Source of the DNA: a virus
Virus record (IMG/VR): IMGVR_UViG_3300032323_002850
Coordinates: 1-34,588 of that record
Length of the DNA: 34,588 nucleotides
Strand: one strand, 5' to 3'
Each line of letters begins with the position of its first letter. Position 1 is the stretch's first letter. The notes beneath the pieces were generated by a model. It was not told where the DNA came from and made no database searches. It was given only the letters and a program-made list of their open reading frames with translations. The position numbers and the translations under genes were made by a program. Below are positions 3,676 through 23,440 of the stretch, one piece after another.

Positions 3676-3951
3676 TCAGGAATGGATGCGGCCATTGAGG
3701 ATGCCGAGGCGGCGGTCGATGTCCGCGATGGCGCGGGCTTCGGTTTTGAAGAGGCGCTCGACGCGCTTGAGGTGCCGCTTGTGGGCTGCGCGAGCTTCTT
3801 TGGCGGCGTGGTCGGAGGCGGCGAGGGATCGGCGGAATTCCGCCTTGCAGTCGCGGGCGACTTTTGCGCGGGCGCGGGTGAGATCGCGGGCTTCGATTTT
3901 CCAGAGCTTCTTTTGCTCGGCTTCGGGTGATGTCTGTTTTTTTGCGGGCAT
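3676..3951 (-). CDS. small basic helical protein
   Basis: A 91-residue protein that is almost entirely helical and highly charged, rich in Lys, Arg and Ala (for example KEARAAHKRHLKRVERLFKT). No family is recognised. A nucleic-acid-binding or scaffolding role is possible. The start follows an A/C-rich leader made of repeated GAACCAAC-like units rather than a Shine-Dalgarno site. It belongs to the early operon between a winged-helix gene and the coiled-coil gene at 3176. Confidence 0.65.
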   Translation of the reverse strand: MPAKKQTSPEAEQKKLWKIEARDLTRARAKVARDCKAEFRRSLAASDHAAKEARAAHKRHLKRVERLFKTEARAIADIDRRLGILNGRIHS

Positions 3952-4759: not shown

Positions 4760-5827
4760 TTACTTGCTCAGGGATTGGATGTCCTTGAAGGCGGCGGTAA
4801 AGTGATCCCAGGTGTAGTCTTCCTCGCGCTTGTTGGCGTAGGCCTTGCCGTCGCGGAGGTGGAGGGTGAGCTTGCGCAGGCCGTTGGAACGGATGATGTC
4901 CTGGATGATCTCATCGGCCTCGCGGTGGATGCCGGTCGGGAGATCGAGCTGGTAGTTTTTCAGGAAGGCTGCGATGTCACCCTTCGTGGGTTTGGATCCG
5001 AGCGGGATCTGGACGGTGCCGCGGTCCACGAGCTGGGCGAGAACGGAGGCATGGACACCTTCGAAGAACTCCTTGCGGAGCAGCTCGGTGCCGGTGAGGG
5101 CGAGGCCGCAATCGGCGGTTTCCTGGATTTCGCGGAGCCACTCGCAGATGCGGACGATCGCTCCGGGTGCGCAGGTGCGGAAGACCTGGTGCAGCTCGTC
5201 GATGATGAGGAGGCGGTTGCCCTTCGATAGCATGGCGAGGATTCTTTCGCGCAGGTAATCGGAGCCGTGTCCGCCGGTGGCGATGCGCATGGAAGCGGCG
5301 ACGTGGCGCATGAACTGCACGGCGGTGCAGCCGTAGCCTGGGCAGCGGACAGCGTAGGTGAGGCCGTGGTTGTGGGTGCGCTGGTATTCGCGGATCACGG
5401 TGGATTTCCCGATGCCCATCGCGCCCCACATGATGGTGACGTTGCGCAGCGCGCGGGTCTTGTCGAAGACGGCATACATCTTGCGGGAAAGCGATGTGGT
5501 GATGAAATCCGGATTATCGACGGCATCCACGAGGTGCTCGCGGGCATGGCTCAGCTTGGCGATCTGCGATTCGACGCTGCCCTCGTAGATGCCACGGAAA
5601 AGCCGGGTGAGGGTGGTGGAGCTGACGCCGGTGATGCGGTGGAGTTCGGCAAGACCGAGGCTCTTGTCGCGTGCATGCTCGAACCAGAAGGCGAGGACAT
5701 CGCGCTGGGCGGGGGTGTATTTGTCGGCGATCACGTCGTAGAATCCCTCAATGGTGGGGCCTAGAGATTTCCCGGATCTGAGCATCTGGGCGGAGGGGGC
5801 GGGGTGTTGGATGGCGGTGGTGGACAT
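4760..5827 (-). CDS. MuB-like AAA+ ATPase, transposition target protein
   Basis: A 355-residue AAA-family ATPase. The Walker A loop is GAMGIGKST (135-143) and the Walker B strand is LLIIDE (206-211), followed by a sensor-type LTGTELL. Residues 40-85 contain a helix-turn-helix (GLAELHRITGVSSTTLTRLF), like the N-terminal HTH of Mu B. In Mu, B forms ATP-dependent filaments on target DNA and delivers it to the transposase; the same role is inferred from the motifs and proximity to the transposase gene. Order on the coding strand is transposase, an 82-residue gene, then this ATPase, as in Mu A then B. The leader upstream is a seven-unit period-7 repeat. Confidence 0.85.
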   Translation of the reverse strand: MSTTAIQHPAPSAQMLRSGKSLGPTIEGFYDVIADKYTPAQRDVLAFWFEHARDKSLGLAELHRITGVSSTTLTRLFRGIYEGSVESQIAKLSHAREHLVDAVDNPDFITTSLSRKMYAVFDKTRALRNVTIMWGAMGIGKSTVIREYQRTHNHGLTYAVRCPGYGCTAVQFMRHVAASMRIATGGHGSDYLRERILAMLSKGNRLLIIDELHQVFRTCAPGAIVRICEWLREIQETADCGLALTGTELLRKEFFEGVHASVLAQLVDRGTVQIPLGSKPTKGDIAAFLKNYQLDLPTGIHREADEIIQDIIRSNGLRKLTLHLRDGKAYANKREEDYTWDHFTAAFKDIQSLSK

Positions 5828-6154: not shown

Positions 6155-8323
6155 TCAGAGGGTGTCGGGGAGGGGTTCGTCGTCGGGGAGTTCGTCGAAG
6201 GCGGAGGGGCTGGCGGGCATCGGCGCATCGGTATCCCAGTCGCGGGCATCGCCGTGCTTGTGGAGGCGGTTTCCGGCGGCGGTGCGCGCTCCAAGCTGAC
6301 CGGCGGCGCTGCGGGCTTCGGACTGGATCTCCGCATCGGAGCGCATGTCGCCGTTGGCTTTGCGGATGAGATCCTTGTTGAGCTGGTGGACGGCATCGCG
6401 GCGATCCATCTGGCCTTGCATGGCTCGTTTCACGGGGGCTTCCATGGCCCCCTGGAGGCGGGCGCGCTGCTTGAACATTTCCTCGACGGCGTTGTTGTCG
6501 CGGTGTGTGCGGACGTTCCTGGTCAGGGTGCCGAGGGGAGTGAACTGCTGGTCGCAGATGATGAGGGTGTCCGGCATCATGGGGTTGAGGTAGGCCATGA
6601 GCTTATCGCCGGGCTGGAGGAACTCGGTGCGTCCGCGCGGGGTGGTCAGCTCGGGTAGGTAGATCAGCTCCTCGCCGGGGAGGAGGTCTTCGGTGATGTG
6701 GATCTCGTGGCGATTGGTGACGGTGACGGGCTTCGCCCATGAGGTGGGGAGGAGATGGACGCTATCGAAGAGGGAGAGCTTCCTGATGCACGGATCGGCG
6801 GCTTTGACGGCGCGGGCTATCGAGGGACTCCACGGGATGATGGAGCTGAGGCTCGGATCCTCGCGCTGCTCCGCTGCGGCGTGATCGCGGAGGTGCTGCG
6901 GGAGCTTTGCAAGGTCGCTGCGGGAGCGCCACATACCGGGTTCGTCCTGCTTCCAGCGCCAGACGGGTTCCACGAAGTTGAGGGCGTTCCATCCTTCGAA
7001 ATTGTGGTCGGTGCGGTTGGCCAGGGCGTGACGGATCAGCTCGGCGATGGAGACGAACTCGACGCCGGTGAGATAGTTGGAAAGGATGCCGTCCTGGATG
7101 TGGGCCGGCAGGTCTTTCACGGCCTTGAGGATCTGCTTCTCGTATTTGGTGATGCCGTAGTTTTCCTCGGGGGAGTTCTCGACGTTGCGGCCGGTCTGGC
7201 CGATGAGCATCTGGCTGTATGTGCGCCAGAGGTGGAAGCTGGATTCGATGGGTGCCTTGAAGCGCGGGTTTCCGGACGATTGCGGGCCGTAGAGCATTTC
7301 CGCGAAGGCGGGCTTGTTGAAGAGGCCGGAGCTATCCATGCGGACGCAGCCGCCGGTGATGGCGCGGAGGGCTTCCTCGAATGAGTGATGGCCGTCGGGT
7401 GTGGAGAGCGCTTTGTTTTCCCAGGTCTTGGCGGTGCCGTGCTCCTGGATCAGCGTGGTTCCGGCGGCGTCGGTGCGGTAGCCCTCGGTGCCGAGGATGG
7501 CGATGACATACCAGACGAACTCTTTCTGCGTGAGGGTGCGGTGGGTCTGGGCGTCGGTGTCATACCAGCGCAGGCGGATGTGGGGACGGAAGGGAAAGCG
7601 GGTGAGGCGGTCGAGGGCGTGGAAGCAGAGGGGCACCATGGGGCGATCAAAGCCGGGGACGCGCACCTGGACATCGGGCTTCTCGTCATCGAAGAAGATG
7701 TATTCGAGGTATTCCGTGCCGACGCATGTGGAGAGGATGGAGGGGAGATCGCGGTAGGCGCTGATGGTGCCCTGGCTGGCGAGCTTGCGCTGGTATTTGT
7801 TCGGCTTGCATTTACGGAAGGTCTCGTAGCTGAAACCGGCGGGGTAGCCTTTGCCGCAATCGGGCGGAGGGTTGATAAAGCCGGGGATGGCCCACTTGGG
7901 ATCGCCGGTTCTGCGCCAGAGGTTCCATTGGTCGATGACCTGACGGTGGGCTTCCATCATGCCGTCCTTGGTGCGCTGGGTGTTCGTGATCAGATCCTTG
8001 AACCATTGGGCGGTGATGTCCGGGATGTGCCGCCGGCCTTTCGCGGCGAGGCGGCGCTGATCAACCAGTCCCTGCCATCCGTGCTGGCGATAGGCCTTGA
8101 TCCAGACGTCGATGGCCTGGGGGGAAATGCCGAGGGTGCGGGCGATGGTTTTCTTCACCTGGCACATGCCGCCGCGCCCCGCCTGCAAGACGGCCTGGAC
8201 GGCTCCGAGCTTGCGGAACATGTCATCCTTCTGGCCGGGGTTGAGCCGGTGCAGATCGGGCAAGCCTCCCTCGCGTGCGATGAGGTCGAGGAGGGTGTCG
8301 GGTGCGTGGGTGAGTGTTTGCAT
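6155..8323 (-). CDS. MuA-like DDE transposase
   Basis: A 722-residue protein. The N-terminal DNA-binding part has a helix-turn-helix at about 55-85 (VKKTIARTLGISPQAIDVWI) and further helices to 150. The catalytic RNase H-like core shows the first acidic residue in YIFFDDEKPDVQ (D212 or D213). The second is at LIQEHGTAKTW, where the acidic residue is Glu (E294), and the third is in FKAPIESSFHLW (E360). A C-terminal beta-barrel segment (ELIYLPELTTPRGRTEF onward) and a basic tail match the Mu A layout. The enzyme would bind the phage ends, nick them and join them to target DNA. ATG at 8323 is preferred; the upstream extension to 8392 only translates a period-7 repeat. Confidence 0.88.
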   Translation of the reverse strand: MQTLTHAPDTLLDLIAREGGLPDLHRLNPGQKDDMFRKLGAVQAVLQAGRGGMCQVKKTIARTLGISPQAIDVWIKAYRQHGWQGLVDQRRLAAKGRRHIPDITAQWFKDLITNTQRTKDGMMEAHRQVIDQWNLWRRTGDPKWAIPGFINPPPDCGKGYPAGFSYETFRKCKPNKYQRKLASQGTISAYRDLPSILSTCVGTEYLEYIFFDDEKPDVQVRVPGFDRPMVPLCFHALDRLTRFPFRPHIRLRWYDTDAQTHRTLTQKEFVWYVIAILGTEGYRTDAAGTTLIQEHGTAKTWENKALSTPDGHHSFEEALRAITGGCVRMDSSGLFNKPAFAEMLYGPQSSGNPRFKAPIESSFHLWRTYSQMLIGQTGRNVENSPEENYGITKYEKQILKAVKDLPAHIQDGILSNYLTGVEFVSIAELIRHALANRTDHNFEGWNALNFVEPVWRWKQDEPGMWRSRSDLAKLPQHLRDHAAAEQREDPSLSSIIPWSPSIARAVKAADPCIRKLSLFDSVHLLPTSWAKPVTVTNRHEIHITEDLLPGEELIYLPELTTPRGRTEFLQPGDKLMAYLNPMMPDTLIICDQQFTPLGTLTRNVRTHRDNNAVEEMFKQRARLQGAMEAPVKRAMQGQMDRRDAVHQLNKDLIRKANGDMRSDAEIQSEARSAAGQLGARTAAGNRLHKHGDARDWDTDAPMPASPSAFDELPDDEPLPDTL

Positions 8324-8330
8324 GGGAAGA

Positions 8331-8365
8331 AGTGAGCGGTGATCAGTAAGCGGTGATCGGTGGGA
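8331..8365. repeat. period-7 linker before transposase
   Basis: Five units: AGTGAGC GGTGATC AGTAAGC GGTGATC GGTGGGA. It lies directly upstream of the transposase ATG and overlaps the end of the ASCH gene, giving that protein its PPITAY ending. Confidence 0.75.
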
Positions 8366-8723
8366 GACTTGGGTTGAAGAATCCGAGGGCACCTTTGCAG
8401 GGAGCGAAGGGAAGCGGGCGGGCGTCCTGGATGACGAAGCCGTATTCGCCGAAGAACCACGGGCTGGCGTCCTGGGTGACGCAATCGGTGATGACAGCCT
8501 CGCCGATGATGCCGCCGCGCTCCAGATCCCCGAAGGCGGGAAGCTCGATGCCTTGCTCTTCCGCCATGACGGATGCGGTGGCGTAGTCGTCGCGGGTCAT
8601 GCCCTTGGAGGCATGGATGAGGAATTTTCCGCGCAGGAAGGTTTTCCAGCAGCGGTTCTCGATGTCCTTGTGGCCGTTTGCGATGAGCCATGCCCAGGGC
8701 TGGCGGATGGATAGGGCTTTCAT
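8343..8723 (-). CDS. ASCH-domain protein
   Basis: A 126-residue single-domain protein beginning MKALSIRQPWAWLIANGHKD, then IENR and a basic RGKFLIHASKGM stretch. This SIRQPWA, ENR and IHASK pattern is characteristic of the ASCH fold, a PUA-like beta-barrel that binds RNA or modified nucleosides. Some members have nucleoside-hydrolysing activity. It overlaps the upstream gene by 4 nt and precedes the transposase by 19 bp. Phage ASCH proteins could act on modified nucleotides or RNA during infection, but the substrate here is unknown. Confidence 0.8.
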   Translation of the reverse strand: MKALSIRQPWAWLIANGHKDIENRCWKTFLRGKFLIHASKGMTRDDYATASVMAEEQGIELPAFGDLERGGIIGEAVITDCVTQDASPWFFGEYGFVIQDARPLPFAPCKGALGFFNPSLPPITAY

Positions 8724-9022: not shown

Positions 9023-9829
9023 TCAGATCCGGCGGAGGGGTTTGGTGTGTTTGGCGGCGTCGGCCTTGATGCGCTCGATGTCGGCGAGGAGGGCGCGGGC
9101 TTCGGTTTCGAGGGTGGTGAGGCTGAGGGGGGTGTCCTCGGTGGAGTGCAGGGGGAGGGCGGCGAGGAGCTTGTGATAGGACGGGTTCATCCGGGTGTTG
9201 ATGAGGCTGCTGCCGAGGCCGTCGAAGAAGTGGAAGGCGAGCTGTCCGGCGGTTTGCTCTTCGGTCTTTTTCGGATCGCCTTTTTTCACGGGCATGGGGG
9301 CGGGTTTCGGGAGGATGCCGAGTTCGCGCATGAGGCTGGCCTGCGTCTCGCCATCGGTGAGGGAGGCGATGACATCATCCACTTTCTCCCACTGGCCTTC
9401 CGTGAGGGTCAGGGGATTCTCGGAGCGGAAGAGGGCGAGGGCGTCCTTCTTGGCGAGGCCGGGGAGGGCGAGCTTTTTGGAGGTCTTGAGCTTCGCGCCG
9501 GTGGCCTCGAAAAGGCGGATGAAGACGTCGGCGCTGCGTACTGAATAGCCTGTTTCCTGCTCGACGATTTCAGGCCAGGGCAATAGGTCGGCAGACTCTG
9601 CCGACCTATTCTTGCCAAAGCAGCCGCGCTGGATTCCGTGCTCCTTCTTGAGTCCTGCGAGGATCATGCCGAGCCTGACCTGGCCGCGCAGGTAGAGGCG
9701 GCCCATGGCGCGGAGGGTGGCGGCGGTTTCGCGGGCGGCGTCCCAGGCGGGGTTGCGCGGGGAGTCGGTGGTGATCTCCGGCGCGGATGAGGGAGGGACG
9801 GTGATCAGATGCGGCTGGGTGGTTTTCAA
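9023..9829 (-). CDS. DUF3102-like protein with an inserted palindromic segment
   Basis: A 268-residue protein with a probable TTG start (MKTTQPHL). Residues 30-115 resemble the DUF3102/plasmid-phage replication-associated family: ETAATLRAMGRLYLRGQVRL, GMILAGLKKEHG, then PWPEIVEQETGYSVRSADVF. Between EHG and LPW lies the segment KNRSAESAD, encoded by a perfect 29-nt palindrome (9582-9610) that looks like an insertion in frame. The C-terminal half is helical and charged. Function is unknown; related proteins occur near plasmid partition or phage early genes. It is part of the early operon upstream of the transposase. Confidence 0.65.
   Translation of the reverse strand: MKTTQPHLITVPPSSAPEITTDSPRNPAWDAARETAATLRAMGRLYLRGQVRLGMILAGLKKEHGIQRGCFGKNRSAESADLLPWPEIVEQETGYSVRSADVFIRLFEATGAKLKTSKKLALPGLAKKDALALFRSENPLTLTEGQWEKVDDVIASLTDGETQASLMRELGILPKPAPMPVKKGDPKKTEEQTAGQLAFHFFDGLGSSLINTRMNPSYHKLLAALPLHSTEDTPLSLTTLETEARALLADIERIKADAAKHTKPLRRI
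9582..9610. repeat. 29-nt perfect palindrome inside coding sequence
   Basis: AATAGGTCGGCAGA, a single C at 9596, then TCTGCCGACCTATT: arms of 14 bp with a one-base centre. It lies within the 268-residue gene and is read in frame. No second copy was noticed in the window. Confidence 0.85.
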
Positions 9830-9839
9830 GGGAAGGTTG

Positions 9840-9867
9840 TCAGGGTTCAGTTTTCAGGTTTCAGGGA
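9840..9867. repeat. period-7 linker (TCAGGTT family)
   Basis: Four units: TCAGGGT TCAGTTT TCAGGTT TCAGGGA. A different sequence family from the GTGATC linkers but with the same 7-nt period, located just upstream of the TTG-started 268-residue gene. Confidence 0.7.
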
Positions 9868-9873
9868 AGAGGA

Positions 9874-9981
9874 TCAGCGGGAGAGGTTGCAGGGGAGGTT
9901 TCCGAAGGTGGAGCGGGCGGCGGCGGGGTTGATGCTGCGGGTGATGCCACGGCGGGCGGCATCCACGGGCGGGAGCTTCAT
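9874..9981 (-). CDS. possible short gene, basic peptide
   Basis: An open frame on the operon strand ends at 9874. The only ATG is at 9981, giving 35 residues (MKLPPVDAARRGITRSINPA onward). The frame continues open upstream to the period-7 repeat near 10120, with protein-like composition (KIRAALAAREPRLTEKALSL) but no ATG, GTG or TTG start at its beginning. Either the short form or a non-standard start is used, or it is not a gene. Low confidence. Confidence 0.3.
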   Translation of the reverse strand: MKLPPVDAARRGITRSINPAAARSTFGNLPCNLSR

Positions 9982-10111: not shown

Positions 10112-10146
10112 ATTGAGGATTGAGGATTGATTATTGATTATTGGAA
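10112..10146. repeat. period-7 linker (ATTGAGG family)
   Basis: Five units: ATTGAGG ATTGAGG ATTGATT ATTGATT ATTGGAA. It follows the structured element at 10154-10218 on the coding strand. The same repeat family follows the sister element. Confidence 0.75.
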
Positions 10147-10153
10147 GAGAGGT

Positions 10154-10218
10154 GGGGCGGATGCGTAGTGCGGCTTACCAAGACCGTGCCAGCCCTTGCG
10201 GGTGAGGCCATCCGCCCC
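10154..10218 (-). ncRNA. candidate structured RNA, copy B
   Basis: On the minus strand a 10-bp outer stem (GGGGCGGATG with CATCCGCCCC) encloses two hairpins. The first has GCC/GGC and CCC/GGG pairs closed by a GCAA tetraloop. The second is CGGT, an 8-nt loop, then GCCG. It begins a few bases after the stop of a 26-codon membrane peptide gene. Architecture matches the copy at 10356-10421 although stem bases differ, which is compensatory change. There is no U-tract, so it is not a simple terminator. RNA identity is inferred from pairing. Confidence 0.6.
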
Positions 10219-10305: not shown

Positions 10306-10345
10306 TGGTGAATGGGGATTGAGGATTGAGGATTGGAGATTGGGG
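10304..10345. repeat. period-7 linker (ATTGAGG family), second copy
   Basis: Six units: ATTGGTG AATGGGG ATTGAGG ATTGAGG ATTGGAG ATTGGGG. It serves as the leader of the 26-residue peptide gene and follows structured element A. Confidence 0.75.
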
Positions 10346-10355
10346 AAAAGGTGGT

Positions 10356-10421
10356 GGGGAGGGTGCTTGGTGCGGCTTTATCAGACCGATCCGCGTCTTA
10401 CTGTGCGCGGACACCCTCCCC
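10356..10421 (-). ncRNA. candidate structured RNA, copy A
   Basis: On the minus strand a 10-bp outer stem (GGGGAGGGTG with CACCCTCCCC) encloses a first hairpin, TCCGCG, 10-nt loop, CGCGGA. A second hairpin, CGGT, 8-nt loop, GCCG, is shared with copy B, as is the 3' joining segment CAC(C/T)A(A/C)G. Outer-stem positions 5 and 8 differ from copy B with pairing kept (C-G to A-T and A-T to G-C). It starts 6 nt after the stop of the 48-residue membrane protein gene. Confidence 0.6.
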
Positions 10422-12728: not shown

Positions 12729-12824
12729 CAATCCCCTTCTCCATATTCGGGCGAGTAGGCTTAACTGGGTGCGGGTGGGTGCGGGTGGAAAAGGCTTTTC
12801 CGGGATCCGTGTTTTGATGCGGGC

Positions 12825-15712: not shown

Positions 15713-17244
15713 TGGCAGCGAAAACCAAACAGAGCCGCGAGGCGATGGAGAAGCTGGCGGCGCAGGTCGAGACGGCGGTCAAGGCTTCGCGTGAAAATCC
15801 CCTGTGGGAAATGGCGCTGGATGACATCCGCCCGCTGGTGGATGGGCACGAGCTGGGCAGCTCGCGCAGCGGATGGAAGAATCCCTATCCCTCCTCCGAT
15901 CCGCGGTCGCTGCTGCTGGAATACCAGTTCGACAATTTCCACGACCGGGAGCGGTTCAAGATCTCGCTGCAAAGCCGCCAGAGCGGCAAGGACTTCACGG
16001 CCCAGGGCGAGGCGGCGGAGGATTGCATGGCGCGGCCTGGCACGGAATGGATGACCGCCGGCCCATCGGAGCGGCAGTCGCTCGATTCCCTGGAACAAGG
16101 GAAGACATGGGCGGAGGCGTTCGGCCTTGTGGTGGATGACTACGTGGAGCAGCGCGAGGGCGGCAGCGAGACTTTGCTGAAAAGCGCGGAGATCATCTAC
16201 TCGAACGGATCCAAGAACCGCGCCGTGCCAGGCAAGCCCTCAACGGTGCGCGGACGCAGCGCGAACCTTCTGCTGACCGAGTTTGATTTCTTCGAGGAAC
16301 CGGCCGAGACATGGAGGGCGATCCTGCCCTCGATCACCAACCCGCTGAAAGGCGGCGAGAAAAAGGTGCGCCTGATCACGACGCCGAACGGCAAGGGCGG
16401 CGCAGCGGACAAGATCTGGAGCAAGCCGCAGATCGGCAAGGCGACATGGAGCAAGCACCTGGTCACAATCTATCACGCGGTGCTGATGGGCTTGCCGGTG
16501 GACATCGCGCAGCTCAAGGAGATGTTCGACGATCCGGACGGCTGGGCACAGGAGTTCGAGTGCCGCTTCCTTGACGGATCGAACGTGCTGCTTCCCTACG
16601 AGCTGATCGCGACCTGCGAGAGTTTCGAGGCCACGGAGGTCTGGAACCTGGCGGACGGCATCGGCGGCGGGCCGTGTTTCACGGGGATCGACTTCGGACG
16701 GCAGAACGATCCTTCCGTGGCGGTGACACTGCAACGCATCGGCGGGCTGCTCGTCACCCGCGAGGTGAATCTGATGAAGCAGGTTTCCGCGCCCGACCAG
16801 CAGGACAGGATGCGGGCGGCGATCAAGGGGAGCATGCGGACATGCTTCGACTACACCGGCCCTGGTATCGGCCTAGGCGACTTCCTGGCGAAAGAGCACG
16901 GCGAGTGGAAGCCGGAGCAGCACAAGATGGGCAAGGTGGAACTCTGCACGTTCAGCGCCGGATTCAAGCGCCTCATTTTCCCCAGGCTGCGCCGCGCGTT
17001 CGAGCAGCGCGAGCTTCTCATCCCGATCTCCCGCGCGATCCGCGAGGATCTCCACGCGATGCTCCAGACCTTCACGGGCACGGAATACAACTATTGGTCG
17101 CCGCGCACGAAGGAAGGGCACTCGGATATCTGCACGGCCTATGCGCTGGCGGTGCGGGCGGCGGGCGGAGCGGTCGCTACAAGCGGCTATGAATCCATCC
17201 CATCGCTGCGCCCGGAGAACCGCCGAAAAGGAGGTGGGCTGTGA
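15712..17244 (+). CDS. terminase large subunit (Mu gp28-like)
   Basis: A 510-residue packaging motor. The ATPase part shows a Walker A variant SRQSGKD (88-94) and Walker B LLLTEFDFFEE (186-196), followed by a coupling segment LITTPNGKG. The nuclease part has the acidic triad positions D327 (FTGIDFGR), D380 (CFDYTGPG) and D472 (GHSDICTAY), typical of the RNase H-like terminase nuclease. It uses ATP to pump DNA into the procapsid and cuts it at headful length. The open frame continues upstream of 15712 but that part is a shadow of gp27. A 15-bp repeat marks its 3' end. Confidence 0.9.
   Translation: MAAKTKQSREAMEKLAAQVETAVKASRENPLWEMALDDIRPLVDGHELGSSRSGWKNPYPSSDPRSLLLEYQFDNFHDRERFKISLQSRQSGKDFTAQGEAAEDCMARPGTEWMTAGPSERQSLDSLEQGKTWAEAFGLVVDDYVEQREGGSETLLKSAEIIYSNGSKNRAVPGKPSTVRGRSANLLLTEFDFFEEPAETWRAILPSITNPLKGGEKKVRLITTPNGKGGAADKIWSKPQIGKATWSKHLVTIYHAVLMGLPVDIAQLKEMFDDPDGWAQEFECRFLDGSNVLLPYELIATCESFEATEVWNLADGIGGGPCFTGIDFGRQNDPSVAVTLQRIGGLLVTREVNLMKQVSAPDQQDRMRAAIKGSMRTCFDYTGPGIGLGDFLAKEHGEWKPEQHKMGKVELCTFSAGFKRLIFPRLRRAFEQRELLIPISRAIREDLHAMLQTFTGTEYNYWSPRTKEGHSDICTAYALAVRAAGGAVATSGYESIPSLRPENRRKGGGL
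17230..17244 (+). repeat. 15-bp junction repeat, copy 1
   Basis: GGAGGTGGGCTGTGA covers the end of the terminase gene. It recurs with one mismatch at 17382-17396 (GGAGGTGCGCTGTGA), 152 bp away, at the portal start. Confidence 0.7.
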
Positions 17245-17396
17245 AATTTTCAAATTACGCGCTCACAGGCGATTTAAGGGGGGGGTGCCTGAAATGCGCC
17301 CCATCACGCGGAGCTTTCCCAAAAACGCGCTTGCAAGGCTGTGCAAGGGGCAGTTCGGGCGATTCTGGCGATTTCCTGAGAGGAGGTGCGCTGTGA
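17241..17396 (+). CDS. possible 51-residue ORF between terminase and portal
   Basis: A frame from GTG at 17241 to TGA at 17394-17396 gives 51 residues (MKFSNYALTGDLRGGCLKCA onward), overlapping the terminase stop and the portal GTG by 4 nt each. Both overlaps and the upstream AGGAGG-like site suggest translation. Against it, codon use is unlike that of neighbours (AAA TTT TCA AAT, a run of G) and no family is recognised. It may be a duplication-born insertion in the old terminase-portal overlap. Confidence 0.35.
   Translation: MKFSNYALTGDLRGGCLKCAPSRGAFPKTRLQGCARGSSGDSGDFLRGGAL
17382..17396 (+). repeat. 15-bp junction repeat, copy 2
   Basis: Carries the Shine-Dalgarno-like AGGAGGT and the GTG start of the portal. 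Paired with 17230-17244. Confidence 0.7.
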
Positions 17397-18991
17397 TCGG
17401 TGCTCCTGTGATTTACGGCCCGGATAACCGCCCGGTGAACGCGGAGCGCGTGAAGCTGGAGAAGCAGACGCGGTTCAATGCGCTGCGGAACTGGACGCCG
17501 GAAATCCTGGTGCGTCAGCTTGAGGCTTTTTGCCGGGGCGAGATCGCGGCGCTGGCCTGGGTGATGGAGTGGCTGGAGAAGCATGACGACATCATCGCGA
17601 CGGTGGCACCGAAGGCGAAGGCGGCGGTTTCCCGCCATGGCTACGATGTGCTTCCGGTTGATGAGATCAAGCCGGAGCAGAAGCAGGCTGCTGAGGATCA
17701 GCAGGGTTTCATGCAGGAATTTTTCCAGAACCTGACCGCCAGCGATGCCGTGGAGCTGGAGGAAAGCGGCGGTATGCGCCTGCTGATCCAGCAGATCATG
17801 GATGCCTATGGGAAGAGCTACGCCGCCCATCACATCATCTGGAAGCCGAGCCGCAAGGGTCTCGGCGCGGAGCTTGTGAAGGTGCCGACGTGGTTCTTCG
17901 AAGCGACCGAGGGCAGGCTGAAATTCCTCCCCGGCATCGGGGCGCAGCGCGGTGTGGAGCTGGAGACGCTGGGCGGGCGGGATGCGTGGATGGTTTCCAA
18001 GGGACGCGGCGTGATGCTGGCGGGCGTGGTGGCGGCGATGCTGAAACGTATCCCGCTGCAAGACCTTCTCACCTATTGCGACAGGCACGGTATGCCGATG
18101 TTCCTGGGCAAGACGGCTGCGGCCCAGGGCACGCAGGGCTGGACGGACATGGCCAGCGCGGTGGCTGGCATGGGCGCGGAATACGGCGCGGTAATCAACA
18201 CGGGCGATGCCATCGAGGTGATCAATCTTGCGGGATCCAGCGGCACCCTTCCCTACACCGGACTGATCGACCGCATGGACAAGGCGCAGATCATGCTCTG
18301 GCGCGGCGGCGATCTTTCCACGATGAGCCAAAAGGACTCGACGGGATCGAATCCGCAGCAGGAAGACACCGACGAGCTGGACGCGGATAACGCGGCATGG
18401 GTTTCCGAAACGATCAACCGCAACCTCACGGCCCGTGCGATCGCATGGAAGTTCGGCAAGGCCGCGCCGGTGCTGGTGAAGGTGGTGCTGCGCACGAAGA
18501 CGCGCGACAACCTCACCCAGGACATCTCGGTGGTGAAGGAAGCCAAGGAAATGGGCGTGCGCATCAAGGCGAGCTGGTTCACCAACAAGTTCGGCATCGT
18601 GGAAGCGGATCCGGATGAAACCGCGCTGGGGGAAACCCCCAAGCCTCAGGTTCAGGCGATCCCCGAAGAGGTGAACGCGCTGAACACCTCTCCGGACACT
18701 AAGGAGCTTTTCGCGAAATCCCTGGCGAAGGCCGTGGGGGTTTCCGACCGGACTCTGGATCCGGTGAGGCCGGTGATGGAGCGGCTTGCGGCGGGCGTGC
18801 AGGACGGCGGCATGAGCGATGCCGAGTGGCTGCAAGGCTTCGAGGAGCTGGCGCTGGAACTGCCGGAATTTTTCAACCCGTTGCTCGCCGCCGAGATGGC
18901 GGAAGAGCTGGAGGGGGCGATGGGAACCGCGATCGTGAACGGTGTCCGCCAAAGCCTCATCTCAAAAAACACACCCACAAAGGAAGCCTGA
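17393..18991 (+). CDS. portal protein, DUF935 (Mu gp29-like)
   Basis: A 532-residue protein with GTG start after AGGAGGT. It follows the large terminase and has DUF935 features: early helices (EILVRQLEAFCRGEIAALAW), a DDIIATVAPKAKAAVSRHGYD stretch, and the central motif region HIIWKPSRKGLG with PTWFFEATEGRLKFL, then a helical C-terminus. The portal forms the dodecameric ring at one capsid vertex through which DNA is packaged and which joins the tail. Its length fits the family. The upstream 148 bp may hold a small coupled frame. Confidence 0.88.
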   Translation: MIGAPVIYGPDNRPVNAERVKLEKQTRFNALRNWTPEILVRQLEAFCRGEIAALAWVMEWLEKHDDIIATVAPKAKAAVSRHGYDVLPVDEIKPEQKQAAEDQQGFMQEFFQNLTASDAVELEESGGMRLLIQQIMDAYGKSYAAHHIIWKPSRKGLGAELVKVPTWFFEATEGRLKFLPGIGAQRGVELETLGGRDAWMVSKGRGVMLAGVVAAMLKRIPLQDLLTYCDRHGMPMFLGKTAAAQGTQGWTDMASAVAGMGAEYGAVINTGDAIEVINLAGSSGTLPYTGLIDRMDKAQIMLWRGGDLSTMSQKDSTGSNPQQEDTDELDADNAAWVSETINRNLTARAIAWKFGKAAPVLVKVVLRTKTRDNLTQDISVVKEAKEMGVRIKASWFTNKFGIVEADPDETALGETPKPQVQAIPEEVNALNTSPDTKELFAKSLAKAVGVSDRTLDPVRPVMERLAAGVQDGGMSDAEWLQGFEELALELPEFFNPLLAAEMAEELEGAMGTAIVNGVRQSLISKNTPTKEA

Positions 18992-23113: not shown

Positions 23114-23440
23114 ATGAAAAAGCTCCCGCCCATCAAAGGACTTCTCCAGGAGATCGAGGATCTGCGCACTTATGCGGTTCGCGAGGCGGTGGCCGCTCGC
23201 TCGCAGAGCAAGGATCCGCGCGATGCCTACGAGGCCGGAGAGAATGCCGACCGGGCTGCGAAGAAGGCGGATGCCCTGGAGAAGTGGGCGCAGGAAGATG
23301 CGGATCTCATCACCCAGATCCATGCCACGGCGAATTACCTGCGCATCTCGAAACATACATCCCCGCTCCGCGCGCTGGCGCTGAGAAAAATCGAGGATGC
23401 CGAAATGATCCTGCGCCGGGAGATCGGCGACGCACCCTGA
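23114..23440 (+). CDS. hypothetical helical protein
   Basis: A 108-residue protein that is alpha-helical throughout (LLQEIEDLRTYAVREAVAAR, later KWAQEDADLITQIHATANYL). It lies 2 nt after the DUF1320 gene. No family recognised; it is expected to be a minor head or connector factor by position only. Confidence 0.55.
   Translation: MKKLPPIKGLLQEIEDLRTYAVREAVAARSQSKDPRDAYEAGENADRAAKKADALEKWAQEDADLITQIHATANYLRISKHTSPLRALALRKIEDAEMILRREIGDAP

Follow-up and report, generated by a model that had tools for sequence, protein, structure and literature searches.

The window analysed here, the whole 34588-nucleotide stretch of the IMG/VR record IMGVR_UViG_3300032323_002850, belongs to a Mu-like phage that encodes a MuA-like transposase, a MuB/TniB-like ATPase and a Mu-type portal. 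One of its genes, whose neighbors are the transposition genes, carries a perfect palindrome within the coding sequence. The following features are relevant:

4760-5827, minus strand: MuB/TniB-like ATPase (context).
6155-8392, minus strand: MuA-like transposase (phrog_310, E 6.8e-13; 95% amino acid identity in the related phage G001).
9023-9829, minus strand: DUF3102-like protein of 268 amino acids, probably DNA-binding (HTH-like segment LPWPEIVEQETGYSVRSADVFIRLFEA), based on profile, alignment and fold match.
9584-9634, minus strand: in-frame insert of 17 codons (IQRGCFGKNRSAESADL) relative to the DUF3102 family, based on an alignment gap, identities and models.
9582-9610, no strand: perfect palindrome, proposed DNA-binding site in the gene, based on the sequence and a covarying counterpart at 23179-23201 of G001.
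17141-18991, plus strand: open reading frame with a Mu-type portal protein domain (context).

G001 (IMGVR_UViG_3300044616_002294) was the only related phage found in IMG/VR, and searches for more relatives, with the transposase, with MuB and with a profile built from two sequences, recovered this record only. A gene for 126 amino acids (8343-8723; phrog_3193, E 5e-54) adjoins the transposase gene in both phages. AT-rich reiterated stretches of the CTGAAAACTGAAC and AATCAATAATCAATCC types are located between genes of the otherwise GC-rich phage, at 9836-9865, 10114-10161 and 10313-10360 of the window and at 2770-2810 and 3815-3850 of locus L002.

The palindrome at 9582-9610 reads AATAGGTCGGCAGA C TCTGCCGACCTATT and consists of two 14-bp arms, 100% complementary, around a centre of 1 nt, exactly the sequence that the original prediction had placed in an early gene of 268 residues. 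It is far beyond chance, since arms of odd-centred palindromes never exceeded 10 bp in 60 copies of the window generated by a Markov model, and it is the sole odd-centred palindrome of such size in the window. Further half-sites with up to 2 mismatches were not found elsewhere in the window, and a lone match with 3 mismatches corresponds to chance level. The palindrome lies inside the minus-strand open reading frame and is translated without a stop. The idea of a methylation site was considered and rejected; GANTC sites are mildly scarce (101 seen versus 118 expected, and 77 versus 109).

The protein encoded at 9023-9829 appears to be a remote and divergent member of the DUF3102 family (PF11300) that falls below the Pfam cut-off. 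The whole protein gave a weak match of 12.6 bits beginning right after the insert, which separates the long first helix (EHG) from the LPW segment, and the whole G001 protein scored about 14.4-15.5 bits. Joining EHG to LPW by omission of the 17 residues raised the score to 18.9 bits (E 0.0018) with profile positions 8-83 contiguous, and that of the G001 relative to 22.1 bits (E 1.9e-4), whereas deletions of like size elsewhere in the protein did not improve it. The gathering score of 24.4 was reached by neither protein, even without the insert. The family core HG - LPW - S..(S/T)A..(F/Y)(I/M)RL is present, including the invariant residues G65, W85 and A100, and in an alignment with 18 viral DUF3102 proteins (E/Q)WLPW directly follows HG in nearly all of them. 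The top viral fold match of the window protein was likewise a DUF3102 protein (E 0.02). AlphaFold models of the window protein and its orthologue are poor (pLDDT 45 and 58), and both place the insert in a loop that joins helix 27-63 to helix 85-93. Searches of the PDB by sequence and by fold gave no usable match for either protein, and the ParB N-terminal domain (ParB_N) was matched neither in the window protein nor in six DUF3102 proteins scanned. The earlier suggestion that the EHG and LPW..EIV segments are contiguous in related proteins is supported by the contiguous DUF3102 match and its higher score without the 17 residues. Its further claim of a palindrome inserted in frame holds in part: the frame is read through without a stop, but with 29 bp, a length not divisible by three, the palindrome by itself would shift the frame as an insert, and the unit that differs from the DUF3102 relatives is the stretch of 17 residues.

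The orthologue in G001 is 81% identical to the window protein, and both comprise 268 amino acids. The original prediction had expected homologues to differ in length; none of this is seen against the orthologue, which is half of what it had named as evidence against itself. At the equivalent position (23179-23201) G001 has a different perfect palindrome, ACCTTGCCAGA G TCTGGCAAGGT, with 11-bp arms. The centre CAGAGTCTG is common to both palindromes, is read in the same frame (GAG TCT, Glu-Ser) and occurs once per record; CAGANTCTG is also found exactly once in the window and once in G001. At pairs 5, 7, 9 and 10 from the axis both sides have changed, so that 4 of the 11 pairs differ and none is broken, an outcome with a chance of about 1.5e-4 on the assumption that the arms change independently. 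This has occurred in a region where DNA identity between the phages drops to 25% (codons 66-84, 19 codons), compared to 96% before and 88% after it. Hence the palindrome either arose before these phages diverged or was exchanged for a similar one, and it has been kept as a palindrome. The presumed recognition segment of the protein is nearly identical in both phages, although the arms differ at these 4 of 11 pairs.

DUF3102 genes occur in phages and plasmids of Bacillota, Alphaproteobacteria, Leptospira and others. For comparison, 24 viral DUF3102 loci were fetched using a DUF3102 consensus peptide as query, and plasmid genes were found using a viral DUF3102 sequence. Genes L027-L065 were counted as positive when 10 or more of the 13 pairs of a CAAAT..ATTTG-type dyad were formed; by this threshold, an in-gene dyad of about 26 bp (CAAATnCG..CGnATTTG) was present in 26 of 34 distinct genes from phages and plasmids, a proportion that is not a population frequency since both samples were picked by sequence search. 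No clear in-gene dyad was seen in L029, L030, L037, L049 and L063. The dyad usually lies 33-34 codons after HG in the same codon phase, and shifts along with the linker where this is longer. Many viral loci contain perfect or near-perfect in-gene palindromes, e.g. CAAATCCGACAACGTTGTCGGATTTG in L032 and AAATGTTGATACGTATCAACATTT in L048, and seven viral open reading frames have palindromes with 12-13-bp arms, whereas arms in the flanks never exceeded 8 bp. Among the plasmids, in-gene palindromes were found in genes of Lactiplantibacillus (L059, 14+14 bp), Levilactobacillus (L051, L058), Methylorubrum (L062), Alicyclobacillus (L055) and Leptospira (L056). Shuffling of synonymous codons rarely reproduced the dyad overall, and in most genes 0 of 60 shuffles did so. 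That most of the other sampled genes have an in-gene palindrome at a fixed place suggests a cis-acting site that belongs to the gene. Long palindromes were also observed outside the DUF3102 genes in L060 (2520-2557, 17-bp arms) and L059 (2363-2394, 14-bp arms).

In 23 aligned sites 92% of the cells pair, and 59 cells are changed on both sides compared to 17 (s.d. 3) in shuffles; sliding the alignment by one column lowers pairing to 36-42%. Covariation extends to the innermost pairs (columns 12/15, with two-sided changes in 12 cells), with AACGTT, AGCGCT, ATCGAT and TACGTA as centres. As a hairpin loop does not need such pairs, we read the site as two-fold symmetric duplex DNA, and the covarying, loop-free centre suggests a dimer that binds the double strand. 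Most DUF3102 records have one paired site. An exception is G300 (L066), in which three copies of AAATACGAA-N6-TTCGTATTT (2280-2303, 8332-8355 and 12748-12771) lie outside its DUF3102 gene (9594-9941); one copy is situated close to the end of a different open reading frame.

The window gene deviates from this pattern. Its protein shares with DUF3102 the helix - HG - LPW - S.R.A...FIRL core, and the two have in common an early or replication context and, as found here, an in-gene palindrome. It differs by the 17 residues between HG and LPW, by its score below the cut-off and by the lack of the canonical site segment, and its palindrome, of another sequence, lies earlier, within the insert. Accordingly, the gene has no CAAAT..ATTTG dyad about 33 codons after HG, and a well-paired AAAT-N14..18-ATTT was not found in the window; what it does have is a single strong covarying in-gene dyad. 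This palindrome precedes the HTH-like segment instead of following it, is odd-centred and is without AAAT..ATTT edges. Assignment of the window palindrome to the canonical motif was tried and rejected because the half-site scores disagree: 0.8% of shuffles were as similar to the family matrix as the window half-site, but 35% in the case of G001, and a shared motif is not claimed from this inconsistent comparison. With the canonical segment missing and a covarying palindrome in the insert, the simplest joint reading is that this divergent DUF3102-like protein has its DNA site at a different position of its own gene.

An RNA hairpin in the early mRNA, selected for base pairing and acting by pausing, translation control or RNA stability, would explain several of these properties. 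RNA folding of both palindrome cores is very stable (z -6.2 and -5.0), the changes in the arms are compensatory and the palindrome is located in the early operon. However, covarying innermost pairs are not required of a loop, and the three copies in G300 lie outside the DUF3102 gene. Moreover, the T-run of an intrinsic terminator is absent 3' of the stem at 9582-9610, the palindrome is not among the predicted terminator-like sites, and an Rfam search gave no match. A hairpin is thus considered unlikely.

The palindrome could also be a mutational by-product without function, if template switching in a weakly constrained loop remakes or repairs the inverted repeat. Template switching can alter both arms at once, and the amino acid identity of the loop between the two phages is only 16%. 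Yet centre and frame were kept in both phages, and drift does not explain why dyads across the family keep one place and one codon phase, which renders this explanation quite improbable.

Also improbable is a mobile palindromic element, either of the Rickettsia type (RPE) raised by the original prediction or REP-like, that entered a protein loop without disturbing the reading frame. Like the Rickettsia elements, the palindrome is in frame in a protein gene; relative to DUF3102 the insert is in frame in a predicted loop, and it is hypervariable between conserved flanks. In contrast to these elements, its length is not a multiple of three, dispersed copies were not found in the virus and genome contigs searched and it covaries with its orthologue. 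The exact core had 0 matches in other virus contigs and one in genome contigs, at an unrelated terminator-like place. This place, at 52-88 of a Bacteroidales contig (L003; AAAAGGTCGGCAGAATCTGCCGACCTTTTTTT), probably has the palindrome core by chance, and no DUF3102 was found in the 296 genomes around it. The 17-bp cores of both palindromes matched only scattered sites in virus contigs, with little extension and no element family, and blastn against plasmids and phages gave matches at chance level only. The window has one copy, G001 a different palindrome, and the only orthologue, far from lacking a palindrome, has one at the same place that covaries and is not identical. The lack of dispersed copies in these collections together with this covarying counterpart makes a Rickettsia-type element unlikely.

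We return to a duplex DNA site in a DUF3102-like gene, most likely bound by the gene's own protein as a dimer, which we favour with moderate confidence on the basis of comparative sequence evidence. The protein would bind the palindrome within its own coding sequence, and the window palindrome would correspond to the canonical site of the DUF3102 family, at another place and with another sequence. Points against this reading are the weak DUF3102 match, the deviating position, centre and edges of the window palindrome, the inconsistent half-site scores, the conserved recognition segment despite differing arms, the poor models, the single orthologue and the DUF3102 genes that show no clear dyad. 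Binding may control the early operon by autoregulation or mark the element for replication or partition. The latter role is favoured by the genes that surround DUF3102 in other elements. In two plasmids of Roseomonas the ParA gene immediately precedes DUF3102, although both of these DUF3102 genes are without the canonical dyad; in a plasmid of Methylobacterium it is nearby in divergent orientation. Primase, DnaB helicase or SSB are encoded near other DUF3102 genes, and some are located beside terminase genes.

Sites within the gene of the cognate protein have precedents. The centromere-binding protein of Bacillus has its site in its own gene (spo0J/parS). The likeness consists in a palindrome inside the gene of a presumed DNA-binding protein and in the ParA genes adjoining some plasmid DUF3102 genes; in contrast, the ParB N-terminal domain was not found, ParA was not recognised beside the window gene, and there is usually one site. 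In phage lambda the initiator gene O contains the origin, which has iterons. Here, too, a cis site lies within an early protein gene, and DnaB and primase are encoded near DUF3102 genes, but one dyad takes the place of the iterons and the window comes from a transposing, Mu-type phage.

More tentatively, DUF3102 may represent a broad group of palindrome-binding proteins, so far not recognised as such, each with its cognate site located in its own coding sequence. Gene and site would then always be passed on as one unit, and in the two Mu-like phages the site would have shifted to another loop of the gene with a change of sequence. Judged by titles and abstracts, none of the three open-access papers found to name the family treats its function. 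A covarying duplex site in the gene points to a role of DUF3102 in replication or partition, or in early control. With such a site inside the gene of its own protein, the same DNA would be under selection as protein-coding sequence and as DNA site at once.
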